Shown: positions 33,703 through 51,172 of the stretch, piece after piece
Layout: each line of letters begins with the position of its first letter
Position numbering within the stretch: position 1 is the first letter of the stretch
Assembly: GCA_012517475.1 (NCBI GenBank)
Contig: JAAYUV010000053.1
Span: 1 to 64,000, forward strand
Origin: Peptococcaceae bacterium
GTDB taxonomy: Bacteria > Bacillota > Desulfitobacteriia > Desulfitobacteriales > Syntrophobotulaceae
Direction of reading: 5' to 3'
DNA: 64,000 bases
Notes under the pieces: model-generated
The model's database searches: none
Told to the model about the DNA's origin: nothing
The model's input: the letters and a program-made list of their open reading frames with translations, nothing else
Made by a program: the position numbers and the translations under genes

Positions 33703-33748
33703 GGGCTGGTTGCACGACGAACAAAAAGGTTCGTAGTACAACCAGCCC
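33703..33748 (-). terminator. long terminator hairpin after the glycan operon
   Basis: GGGCTGGTTG at 33703 pairs with CAACCAGCCC ending at 33748, extended to a 20-bp stem with two mismatches and an AAAAAG loop. On the minus strand a T-run (TTTTTTAATTAAAATTTC) follows. It would end the transcript coming from the sugar transferase gene at 34050. Confidence 0.8.
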
Positions 33749-33788
33749 ATAATTTTAAGAATGCGAGCCATGAAGAGACTACAGACTA

Positions 33789-33978
33789 GTCTCAGAAATG
33801 TATAGACAGCGTTAAGCGCGTTACGCATGCGTAACGGGATGCGAAGCGCGGCTGTTTCGACGGTCACGGATGACCTAGTGCTGCAATGGCATGGATGACA
33901 TGGAGCAGCCGCCATGGAGGCGTAAAGGCCTGAGCGGGCCTTTACAATCTGCCGAAAGCGGCTATACATTTCTGAGAC
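33789..33978. repeat. structured repeat element A (composite copy)
   Basis: Bounded by a perfect 17-bp inverted repeat, GTCTCAGAAATGTATAG (33789-33805) and its complement (33962-33978). Inside are many small palindromes: GTTACGCATGCGTAAC (33820-33835), GGTCA-CGGA-TGACC (33862-33875), GCTGC/GCAGC (33880-33909), GTAAAGGCC/GGCCTTTAC (33922-33945) and GCCG-AAAG-CGGC. The part 33838-33856 matches element B; the part 33859-33918 matches elements C and D. It lies between the sugar transferase gene and its terminator. Confidence 0.85.
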
Positions 33979-34049
33979 CTACCTGGATGAGCCCTTTTGA
34001 AATAAGCCATAAGTACTTAAATCAGTTTGCAGCATCCCTTAAATTGTTG

Positions 34050-34661
34050 TTAATAGGCATCTTTTCCGGCAAGCACGACAAAGAGAGTCTTCCAGAGAAT
34101 CTTGACATCAGCCCAGAAAGTCCAGTTTTTGACGTATTGTACATCATAGCGAAGGGTTTCCGCCAGGGTAAGCTCACTGCGGCCGTTGATCTGGGCCAGT
34201 CCGGTAACTCCGGGCGGCATGTCCAGCCGTTTTCTCTGATCAGGAGTATACTGTTCCACAATCTCCGGAACTTCAGGCCGGGGGCCGACCAGACTCATGG
34301 TTCCATTGATGATGTTTAAAAGCTGGGGAAGTTCGTCCAGGCTTGTCTTCCTTAAAAACCTGCCGCTTCGGGTTATTCTGGGGTCATCTTTTTCCTGAAA
34401 AATAAAATTCTCCGGGTCAAATTTTCCTTCCTGCTTCAGCTGCTCAATTTTGGCTTTCATCACCGCGTCGGCATTCGGAACCATAGTCCGGAACTTATAG
34501 ATGGTAAACAGCTCTCCTTTTATCCCTACCCTCTTCTGACGAAAGATGGCCGGGCCCGGGGAATCTGTCTTAATCCACAGCACAATAAAAAGCCATAAGG
34601 GGGAGATCAGAATGAGTAAAGGAACCGCTATGAAAAGATCGAGTACTCGTTTAGCCAGCAA
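34050..34661 (-). CDS. undecaprenyl-phosphate sugar transferase (bacterial sugar transferase family)
   Basis: 203 residues. KRVLDLFIAVPLLILISPLWLFIVLWI is the single N-terminal re-entrant/membrane helix; then the catalytic core GPAIFRQKRVGIKGELFTIYKFRTM, ITRSGRFLRKTSLDELPQLLNI, SLVGPRPEVPEIVEQY and PGVTGLAQINGRS. This is the PglC-like minimal phosphoglycosyl transferase that starts a lipid-linked glycan by moving a sugar-phosphate to undecaprenyl phosphate. Given the FlaA1-type dehydratase and diacetamido-uronate genes upstream, the first sugar may be an amino sugar. It is the last gene of the second glycan operon. Confidence 0.93.
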   Translation of the reverse strand: MLAKRVLDLFIAVPLLILISPLWLFIVLWIKTDSPGPAIFRQKRVGIKGELFTIYKFRTMVPNADAVMKAKIEQLKQEGKFDPENFIFQEKDDPRITRSGRFLRKTSLDELPQLLNIINGTMSLVGPRPEVPEIVEQYTPDQRKRLDMPPGVTGLAQINGRSELTLAETLRYDVQYVKNWTFWADVKILWKTLFVVLAGKDAY

Positions 34662-34726
34662 AAATTAATCACTCCAATAGACTAAAGTCCGACGTGATAT
34701 GGATATTCTCTCCACATTACGCTTCA

Positions 34727-35959
34727 TCATATACAGGATCCGGGCATATCTTGTTTGAGCTGATAAAGCCAATTCTTTATGATGCTTTGCCATGAGTAGT
34801 GTTGGATCACATATTCCCGGCCTTTACCCGAAAGTTCACGGCAATATCCCGGATTGCTTAAAAGCTTCAGGATGGTCTCAGCCAACAGCTCCGGGTTCTC
34901 CGGTTCGAGGACTATTCCCCCGCCGCTTTCCTTCACGATCTCCGCTCCCTCGCCTTCTCCCACATAAATGAGCGGCTGCCCGCTGGCCAGCGCAGGAAAT
35001 ACTTTGGAAGGCCGCACTCCTTCTGACAGCTTATATCGCCTGAGGGTAGAAAGATTAATGATGCTGAGGGAGTAATAGCGGGGGATCTCTTCTAATGGCT
35101 GAAAATCAACAAAACGGATATTTGGCAGGTTTTTCTCCCTGGAAATCTCCTCCAGCCTGGGTCTTTCCGAACCGTCACCGACAAAGAGAAAAAAGATATC
35201 CTTTTCCTTCCGCAAGATATCGGCAGCCTCAAGGGCGGTCTCAATTCCATGGGCATAACCCATTGTACCGGCATATAAAATCACGTTTTTTCCCTGAAGT
35301 CCAAGGCTTTCCTCCAGGTCTGTATCCTTCTCCCTTGGCCGGAAAAGATCGGTATCCACCCCATTTGGCAAGAATAAAATATCCTCAGAAGATACCCCTT
35401 TTTTCTTGAGTCCCTCAACAATACCCTGGGTCTGGGCGGAAAGCTTAAAGGCTTTACGGTAAAAATAAGCTTCCAGCCATTCACTCATTCGGATCAGGTG
35501 TTTATTCGTCACCAGTCCAAGCTGGACGGCGGATTCCGGCCATAAGTCGGAAACATTAAATATGTAGGGGGCTTTCTTAAAAAACGACGCGATTATGGCG
35601 GAGAAACCGATAAATAAAGGCGGAGATTCCACTACGATCAAGTCCTGCTTGCCGCTGCGGAATATTCCATAAAGGGATGAAAACACGAACGAAAAATAAT
35701 TGCACAGCCTCAGCCAAAACCTGCCCCTTTTCACCGGATAGATCCAGGTTCTCAAAACCTTGACCCCGTCCATCTCTTCCTGCGCAAACCGTTTTCCCCG
35801 GTATTCCGTAGGGATAATTCCAGTGGGATGATTCGGAAAGGCCGTCACCACGGTAACCTCATGCCCTTCATTCTTAAGCCCTTTGGCCAGTTCCCAAAGG
35901 CGGACCTGAGCCGCCCCCTTCTCCGGCGTAAAATATTGAGTTAAAAGCAAAATACGCAT
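34727..35959 (-). CDS. family 4 glycosyltransferase (WbuB-like)
   Basis: About 410 residues; ATG 35959 with GGGAG five bases upstream is preferred to a TTG four codons earlier. RILLLTQYFTPEKGAAQVRLWELAKGL and VVTAFPNHPTGIIP are typical of the WbuB/WcaI group; the donor side shows ILYAGTMGYAHGIETALEAADIL, FLFVGDGSERPRLE and a late EGVRPSKVFPALASGQPLIY with the E-x7-E type acidic pair. It adds a sugar to the lipid-linked intermediate in the cytoplasm. Element B separates it from the upstream ligase-like gene. Confidence 0.9.
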   Translation of the reverse strand: MRILLLTQYFTPEKGAAQVRLWELAKGLKNEGHEVTVVTAFPNHPTGIIPTEYRGKRFAQEEMDGVKVLRTWIYPVKRGRFWLRLCNYFSFVFSSLYGIFRSGKQDLIVVESPPLFIGFSAIIASFFKKAPYIFNVSDLWPESAVQLGLVTNKHLIRMSEWLEAYFYRKAFKLSAQTQGIVEGLKKKGVSSEDILFLPNGVDTDLFRPREKDTDLEESLGLQGKNVILYAGTMGYAHGIETALEAADILRKEKDIFFLFVGDGSERPRLEEISREKNLPNIRFVDFQPLEEIPRYYSLSIINLSTLRRYKLSEGVRPSKVFPALASGQPLIYVGEGEGAEIVKESGGGIVLEPENPELLAETILKLLSNPGYCRELSGKGREYVIQHYSWQSIIKNWLYQLKQDMPGSCI

Positions 35960-36007
35960 AAGTACTCCCAAATACCTTCAAATAAATTCCCTTATACCTT
36001 CATTCGT

Positions 36008-36108
36008 CTTGCAACAATATATGCGCGACAAGCGGAGCAAGGATGCGGAGCGCGACTGTTAACGCTAGGAGGGCGTTATCTGTCGAAAAGTGCATATATT
36101 GTTGCAAG
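36008..36108. repeat. structured repeat element B (short copy)
   Basis: Bounded by a perfect 17-bp inverted repeat, CTTGCAACAATATATGC (36008-36024) and its complement (36092-36108). An inner stem CGACA/TGTCG and a small hairpin AACGC/GCGTT lie inside. GGATGCGGAGCGCGACTGTT (36041-36060) matches element A with two changes, and TCTGTCGAAA matches TCTGCCGAAA of A. The outer arms are unrelated to the arms of A. Confidence 0.85.
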
Positions 36109-36146
36109 GCAGCGGGGAATGCTTTAATTGTTAGTATAAGGGGGGA

Positions 36147-43960: not shown

Positions 43961-44021
43961 TGACGGCCATGGATGGCCTAATGCCGCGGTGCCATGGATG
44001 GCAAAGAGCGGCAAACGGCCA
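43961..44021. repeat. structured repeat element C (module only)
   Basis: About 61 bp without long outer arms. It contains GGCCA-TGGA-TGGCC (43965-43978), GCCGC/GCGGC (43983-44012) and TGCCA-TGGA-TGGCA. It aligns with 33859-33918 of element A, with paired changes preserving both stems, and with 54910-54993 of element D on the other strand. It sits between the acetyltransferase and aminotransferase genes, close to the ribosome site of the latter. Confidence 0.85.
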
Positions 44022-50365: not shown

Positions 50366-51172
50366 TTAATCTCCCTGTAGTTTTGAATGTTTTCTTAGAA
50401 TTCTACTTACTTTGTTCTTATTTATCCCGGTAATAAAAGCAATTTGCCTTATGGATAAGCCCGTTACCGCTTGTAATTGGGAAACTACTTCTTGGAGAAT
50501 ATTTAAAGGAATTGGATCAATGAATTTATATTTTTTCTCTTCGAGCATATTCATATATAACAGCCTTGCCGCTTTCTCATCAATGACGTTTTCCTCAGCG
50601 GTAAGGTCCATAAAATTTTCCTGTGTCTCTTTACTCATATAGTCAATAAACAGCTGTTTAGCTTTTTGAGGATCATTTGACAACATCATGAAGATAATTT
50701 GTTTATCAATTAGATTGGGAAAATTACTTTTTTCCGTTATATAACTATTATAAGAACTCCACCTATACTCTCCAACAGTATTTACCAGACCGGATTTTAT
50801 TGGATTGTAATGAATATACCTTATTAAAGAAAGCAAATAACTATCACTCTCAATTACTTGGCTCTTAAAACGATCCTGGAACAAATGTCCTACTCGTTTA
50901 TACTTTTTATTAAAATAATAGACATAACTTACGGTAATTTTTTTCATTACCTTTGCTATGTCATTAGTTCCTTCACCTATAGCCAAATGAACATGGTTAT
51001 CCATTAAACAAAATGCTAATAAAGTAAATTCGCCGTTTTGTCTTTTATAATATAGTATTTCTAAGAATCTATCCTTATCTTCACTATCACGGAATATATT
51101 TTTCTTTTCGTTTCCTCGAATCATTACGTGGTATAATCCGGTTTTACTTTTAGTTCTCGGAATTCTCGGCAT
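50366..51172 (-). CDS. REP-associated tyrosine transposase (RAYT, Y1_Tnp family)
   Basis: 268 residues. Residues about 1-170 are a single-strand HUH transposase domain: GLYHVMIRGNEKKNIFRDSEDKDRFLEIL, the metal-binding HVH in LMDNHVHLAI, and a YVYYFNKKYKRVGHLFQDRFKSQVI stretch with candidate catalytic tyrosines, then SLIRYIHYNPIKSGLV. A C-terminal extension (about 190-268) ends in a helix-turn-helix-like LSIRQIAFITGINKNKVSRILRK. RAYTs act on REP palindromes; matching repeats flank this gene on both sides in opposite orientation. It appears intact. Confidence 0.92.
   Translation of the reverse strand: MPRIPRTKSKTGLYHVMIRGNEKKNIFRDSEDKDRFLEILYYKRQNGEFTLLAFCLMDNHVHLAIGEGTNDIAKVMKKITVSYVYYFNKKYKRVGHLFQDRFKSQVIESDSYLLSLIRYIHYNPIKSGLVNTVGEYRWSSYNSYITEKSNFPNLIDKQIIFMMLSNDPQKAKQLFIDYMSKETQENFMDLTAEENVIDEKAARLLYMNMLEEKKYKFIDPIPLNILQEVVSQLQAVTGLSIRQIAFITGINKNKVSRILRKHSKLQGD

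Follow-up and report, generated by a model that had tools for sequence, protein, structure and literature searches.

Two inverted-repeat elements belong to a dispersed repeat family related to the TwoAYGGAY RNA

Two hairpin-containing elements, A and B, are diverged members of one dispersed repeat family, which is very probably a high-copy form of TwoAYGGAY (RF01731), an RNA family already known, though little studied. Both lie in the window, i.e., the whole 64-kb stretch of DNA analysed, which is contig C44 of a 3.68-Mb assembly (here called the own genome, G000). Our explanation as a whole, to which we assign a probability of roughly 0.6, is that the repeat specifies a TwoAYGGAY-type structured RNA with an outer helix selected for pairing only, which binds CsrA dimers and serves as either a CsrA sponge or a CsrA-responsive segment. 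Its structural part, in which the arms of the elements covary as the outer stem of a TwoAYGGAY-like family, we consider very probable. The new features are the dispersal of the family, of which several related genomes each hold about 50 copies or more, and the gain or loss of a hairpin module at one orthologous site.

Results

Elements A and B and their surroundings

Element A is closed by GTCTCAGAAATGTATAG and its complement, and element B by CTTGCAACAATATATGC and its complement, with pairing that is perfect over 17 bp in both cases (Table 1). These are the sole perfect inverted repeats of at least 15 bp with a gap of less than 400 nt in the 64-kb window, for which about 0.002 perfect inverted repeats of length 17 would be expected by chance. 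The outer arm ends are 190 nt apart in A and 101 nt apart in B, and the + strand of each element folds far more stably than shuffled sequence, with z-scores of -7.4 (A) and -6.6 (B). The initial annotation had described two elements with perfect 17-bp arms and related cores, and this description was confirmed in position, in complementarity and in the kinship of the cores: both elements match one covariance model, R1, which was trained on 27 short copies that include B but not A (64.3 bits for A, 92.6 bits for B).

Table 1. Features of the repeat family in the window
Feature	Positions	Strand	Basis or remark
Element A, long (expanded) copy; strand with A-N-GGA-X loops	33781..33985	+	R1 64.3 bits, E 6.8e-16
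A, 5' arm of outer helix P1	33789..33805	+	Close variants in other copies
A, 3' arm of outer helix P1	33962..33978	+	Complement of 5' arm
A, perfect palindrome CGTTACGCATGCGTAACG, replaces first GGA hairpin	33819..33836	+	In some copies only; L026, L030, others
A, hairpin GGTCACGGATGACC, loop ACGGAT, CsrA/RsmE-like site	33862..33875	+	Sequence, fold, loop statistics
A, region with loop ATGGAT, CsrA/RsmE-like; stem imperfect in A	33888..33899	+	Sequence, fold, loop statistics
A, hairpin CGCCATGGAGGCG, loop ATGGAG, CsrA/RsmE-like site	33910..33922	+	Sequence, fold, loop statistics
Element B, short copy, same family as A	35998..36117	+	R1 92.6 bits (B in training set)
B, 5' arm of outer helix P1	36008..36024	+	Sequence, fold
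B, 3' arm of outer helix P1	36092..36108	+	Sequence, fold
B, loop AAGGAT of hairpin P2	36039..36044	+	Sequence, alignment, loop statistics
B, loop AGGAG of hairpin P3, form without free nucleotide N	36067..36071	+	Sequence, alignment, loop statistics
Stand-alone module, two ATGGAT hairpins	43962..44020	+	Weak R1 match, E 0.93; no outer arms recognised

Both elements are situated between minus-strand genes, to which their GGA strand is opposite, and the surroundings, judged by eye, look like a polysaccharide gene cluster (glycosyltransferase-like and polymerase/flippase-like proteins). The stand-alone module also sits between two minus-strand genes. It is like the extra modules inside long copies, is of the same type as one in a G012 copy (L185:19880), and is probably a fragment or a free module of the A/B family. 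Just before element A, at 33703-33748, there is a terminator-like hairpin (GGGCTGGTTGCACGACGAAC...) that resembles a second repeated hairpin (GGGGCTGTTGCACAACG...) found in several places in the own genome (L140 and L141 in G000). Elsewhere in the window, a 268-aa protein (50366-51172, - strand) overlaps a Y1_Tnp (PF01797) match at 50807-51136 and is possibly of the REP-associated transposase type; a link between it and the repeat family was looked for, and none was found.

Copies and genome distribution

By BLAST, the core of A has about 40 related places in the own genome and the core of B about 30 other places, including C36:34174-34237. R1 finds 51 copies in the own genome, 2-11 in four further relatives, and 37 in one genome from another family of the order; six other family members have at least 54-59 copies each, with up to 59 candidates scored per genome. 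Across the class, the repeat was present in 12 of the 83 genomes surveyed. An exact-pattern scan of public genomes returned mostly chance matches in unrelated phyla; 'Gracilibacter' sp. LH_M27 accounted for two of the three real matches and Ca. Dichloromethanomonas elyunquensis for the third.

Several organizations of copies recur. An extra stem, GGGGCTGTTGCAAAAC...GTTTTGCAACAGCCCC, encloses one subfamily (L026, L030, L008, L134, L135, L113 and L132), with A tracts and T tracts beside many copies, and occurs also with short or deleted interiors. Divergent pairs of copies about 90-330 bp apart, with their GGA strands facing outwards, are frequent in G012 and G002 (e.g., G012 L189:2300-2634 and L185:15920-16295, and G002 L202:367-915, among others).

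The arms form an inherited helix constrained by pairing

The arms fall into subfamilies, which are GTCTCCGTAATGTATAG-like (including that of A), GTCTGGGGGCCACAG-like, ACGYAATGTNCTCTAA-like, and rarer types such as that of B. Most begin with a common GTCT or GGCT, and the terminal ends are common to copies within a subfamily. The arm of A is matched at 15 of 17 positions by L007, L019, L024, L054 and others, own-genome copies among them; for the arm of B, the best other copy examined agrees at 11 positions at most. The arms of A and B had been called unrelated, and their letters do differ, but in the register that the core defines, where the B arm begins GTCTTGCAACAATATAT, 10 of 17 positions are identical (P ~0.003 for a fixed register), and 9 of 17 are identical in the register used originally.

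Neither an exact length of 17 bp nor perfect pairing is a property of the family. In element B, pairing extends outwards to 36006 and inwards to 36026 through G-U pairs. Of the 93 distinct arm pairs examined, only 18 match without a fault over 16 bp, and the longest faultless stretch ranges from 6 to at least 16; most copies have imperfect arms that differ in this length. The length of 17 bp may nevertheless have a structural basis, in that the main outer-helix segment of the Rfam TwoAYGGAY consensus has 17 pairs.

Conservation of pairing is pronounced. In an alignment of 27 copies, 93.5% of 894 cells of the outer helix are paired, compared with 23-44% when the partners are slid; the covariation score is 0.415 versus 0.157 in shuffles, and 22 of the 34 pairs show double changes, i.e., changes on both sides. 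On the + strand of P1, G-U pairs outnumber A-C mismatches by 31 to 8 in one alignment and by 53 to 29 (p 0.01) in the 93 distinct arm pairs, where the register was picked without favouring either type; this excess is modest, and the copies are related, so the counts are not independent. Arms in distant genomes differ again yet stay paired (e.g., GGCGGAGGGCAGGCGGTTCCGC in G041), and in two genomes about 95% identical, most copies are at the same sites, with arms retained and single changes only. The initial annotation had offered fast evolution under strict pairing as one possibility. The second half of that proposal is upheld, since arms from different copies and genera vary in their letters but still pair; the first is not supported, because orthologues differ singly. 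Together, the shared arms, the covariation and the retention at orthologous sites indicate that the arms are an inherited, pairing-constrained helix rather than one made anew.

Core hairpins carry GGA loops on one strand

The conserved core of the + strand has the form AAGCGGAGCA-N-GGA-TGCGGAGCGCGGC...GCGCCA-N-GGA-X-GGCGC. In both hairpins the A and the GGA are nearly invariant, whereas N and X are variable and some forms have no N at all. Among the loops predicted for 68 diverged copies, GGA is found in 102 of 141 on the sense strand and in 1 of 154 on the antisense strand, and in a separate set of 50 copies, 55% of sense loops contain GGA versus 13% in mononucleotide shuffles; the loops are those of minimum-energy folds, and the copies are related, so the loop counts are not independent. 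Between genera, the loops stay constant and the stem sequences are entirely different.

Additional A-N-GGA-X hairpins are present in long copies, A among them. At one site, G002 1110367-1110486 (L202:367), a 52-nt stretch holding extra GGA hairpins is missing and is present in the G012 orthologue L185:19880. The high-affinity CsrA/RsmE site has been described as an ANGGAX hexaloop placed directly on a stem (PMC4005645), and the repeat has multiple GGA hairpin loops of this form on a single strand, as CsrB/Rsm-type sRNAs do.

Relationship to TwoAYGGAY

An Rfam scan of the window at the gathering threshold gave no match; in other copies of the repeat, it matched TwoAYGGAY. One copy in the own genome (G000:C36:34133-34278) scores 45.2 bits against a cut-off of 43, another copy (L035) is a full-length match at 42.1 bits, and the own genome contains 26 matches at E<=1. 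Because A and B themselves give no match to TwoAYGGAY, even at E 10, their membership rests on their relatives. The core of B matches the C36 copy, which is over the Rfam cut-off, by plain BLAST (E 3.4e-8).

The organization of the elements agrees with this assignment. Element B has two adjacent hairpins with A-Y-GGA-Y-like loops, and A has three hairpin regions. The external stem of TwoAYGGAY has been described as poorly conserved (PMC4333381); in the repeat, a long outer helix poorly conserved in sequence is present as the covarying P1, and the outer helix of the RF01731 consensus includes 17 consecutive pairs. TwoAYGGAY copies in other genera of the order likewise differ in their outer stems and have A-N-GGA-X loops. 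Rfam places TwoAYGGAY in clan CL00106 together with RsmX and RsmY, and one long copy of the repeat (L012) weakly matches RsmY, at 23.9 bits against a cut-off of 57. TwoAYGGAY was proposed on motif grounds in 2014 to be a CsrA-binding RNA in Clostridia (PMC4333381).

Discussion

In the mechanism we propose, the + (GGA) strand of the dispersed repeat would be transcribed into a TwoAYGGAY-type structured RNA, in which an outer helix of about 17 bp would present at least two hairpins whose loops are of the A-N-GGA-X form. The transcript would bind CsrA dimers through paired GGA hairpins, and the bound RNA would act as a CsrA sponge or as a CsrA-responsive segment. Selection on the outer helix would be for pairing only, with letters drifting between subfamilies and complementarity being restored, and this would be the reason that the arms of A and B differ. 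The sequence, the covarying structure, the GGA loops on one strand, the kinship of the copies, the Rfam match in the own genome and the dispersal are observed; the transcription of the copies, the binding of CsrA and the regulatory effect we infer.

There are several observations related to a CsrA role. In the own genome, csrA adjoins fliW; in two carriers, csrA was not found, namely G041 (91% complete, 37 copies) and G015 (84% complete, 54 copies). With simple ORF calling, 26 copies lie in the sense orientation relative to genes and 35 in the antisense orientation, with no preference for sense. The two carriers without a detected csrA and the lack of an orientation bias count against simple cis-regulation. 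A promoter scan found 6 promoter-like sites versus 3.9 expected, none of them convincing. This result, and the orientation of the GGA strand opposite to the genes beside A and B, likewise count against the proposed mechanism. A broader and quite tentative scenario, which we consider doubtful, is that the repeats are self-spreading CsrA-binding RNA modules, in which case the copies in the relatives of Dichloromethanomonas might together be a genome-wide CsrA sponge, and in-place gain and loss of GGA hairpins might tune the number of CsrA sites.

The alternative that deserves the most consideration, although we think it on balance unlikely, is a non-autonomous mobile DNA element of the MITE or REP kind. 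The arms would then be terminal inverted repeats, the one-strand hairpins would be bound as single-stranded DNA by a transposase acting in trans, and the resemblance to RNA would be incidental. Near-identical copies at unrelated places (L026 and L030; L042, L043, L045 and L046 at contig ends) suggest dispersal, and copies are intergenic, occur in both orientations, and are found between convergent genes in 19 cases and between divergent genes in 6. The pairing of G with T on one strand would fit single-stranded DNA as well as RNA. Against mobility as DNA, a target-site duplication is absent in 25 copies with defined ends (direct repeats of k 2-9, no excess), and a non-exhaustive search found no transposase with the same ends. 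A Y1 transposase (PF01797) was not found in the carriers G001, G012, G017 and G023, and Y1/RAYT proteins as mobilisers of the repeat were rejected for lack of association between Y1 genes and carrier genomes. The conserved A-N-GGA-X pattern, in which N and X are free, agrees with the preference of a known RNA-binding protein, and the match to TwoAYGGAY is a match to an RNA family; both speak for an RNA. In 1.2 Mb of two syntenic genomes, no clean empty sites were found, most copies being in both, and the handful present in one genome and absent from the other are ambiguous or deletion-like, e.g., a CAGA-flanked loss opposite G012 2248296.

An improbable alternative is that the repeats are bidirectional transcription terminators or mRNA-stabilising stems, with GGA loops that are simply inherited by descent. 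Such a role would be consistent with the greater number of copies in gaps between convergent than between divergent genes, and with the subfamily that has the extra outer stem GGGGCTGTTGCAAAAC, which in many of its copies has A and T tracts beside it. Elements A and B, however, have no T tracts after the stem, invariant A-N-GGA-X loops and internal modules are unnecessary for a terminator, and a terminator would not lead one to expect loops that stay constant where the stems have changed completely. The initial annotation had also raised, from the differing and perfect arms of A and B, the creation of new arms whenever an element inserts. Such an origin, for which the target site would have to be copied in inverted form and which would fit arms that differ between subfamilies, was rejected as very improbable: arms are common within subfamilies, mostly with the same GTCT or GGCT start, often imperfect, and retained at orthologous sites. 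Arms shared by other copies, and imperfect pairing of variable length, are the two findings that the initial annotation had named as speaking against its idea, and both were made.

If the repeat is a TwoAYGGAY-type RNA, a puzzling pair of repeats is explained and tied to an RNA family for which a CsrA role was already proposed. Since each cell holds dozens of diverged copies, a single strain is enough to work out the rules that govern the stems, loops and modules of TwoAYGGAY. Moreover, the proposal that CsrA-binding RNAs occur outside Gammaproteobacteria becomes testable in a cultivated relative.

Finally, we compare the repeat with other known systems. Like REP/REPIN sequences with their Y1 (RAYT) transposases, it is palindromic, has a high copy number and is sometimes arranged in inverted pairs; unlike them, it has multi-hairpin units of 100-240 nt and several carriers in which Y1 genes were not found. 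The BOX elements of Streptococcus pneumoniae are similarly intergenic and modular with a variable middle, are predicted to form an RNA stem-loop, occur in excess between convergent genes, and are thought to be non-autonomously mobile (PMC3049150). BOX and the repeat were compared by description, and no sequence relation was seen. BOX elements are not known to have the A-N-GGA-X loop pattern.

The CsrA-sequestering RNAs CsrB, CsrC, RsmX, RsmY and RsmZ share with the repeat the presence of several GGA hairpin loops on one strand. These sRNAs were known only from Gammaproteobacteria (PMC4333381), and the copies described here differ from them in being dispersed and in having a long outer stem that closes each unit. 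The closest counterpart is TwoAYGGAY itself (RF01731; PMC2864571), which, like the repeat, has two hairpins of the A-Y-GGA-Y type inside a long outer helix, with a 17-pair segment in its consensus, and whose reported taxa include Clostridiales. Most copies, A and B included, score under the TwoAYGGAY cut-off, and the repeat is further distinguished by its copy number, which in several species is about 50 or more per genome, by extra hairpin modules, by subfamilies with their own arms, and by an additional terminal stem.
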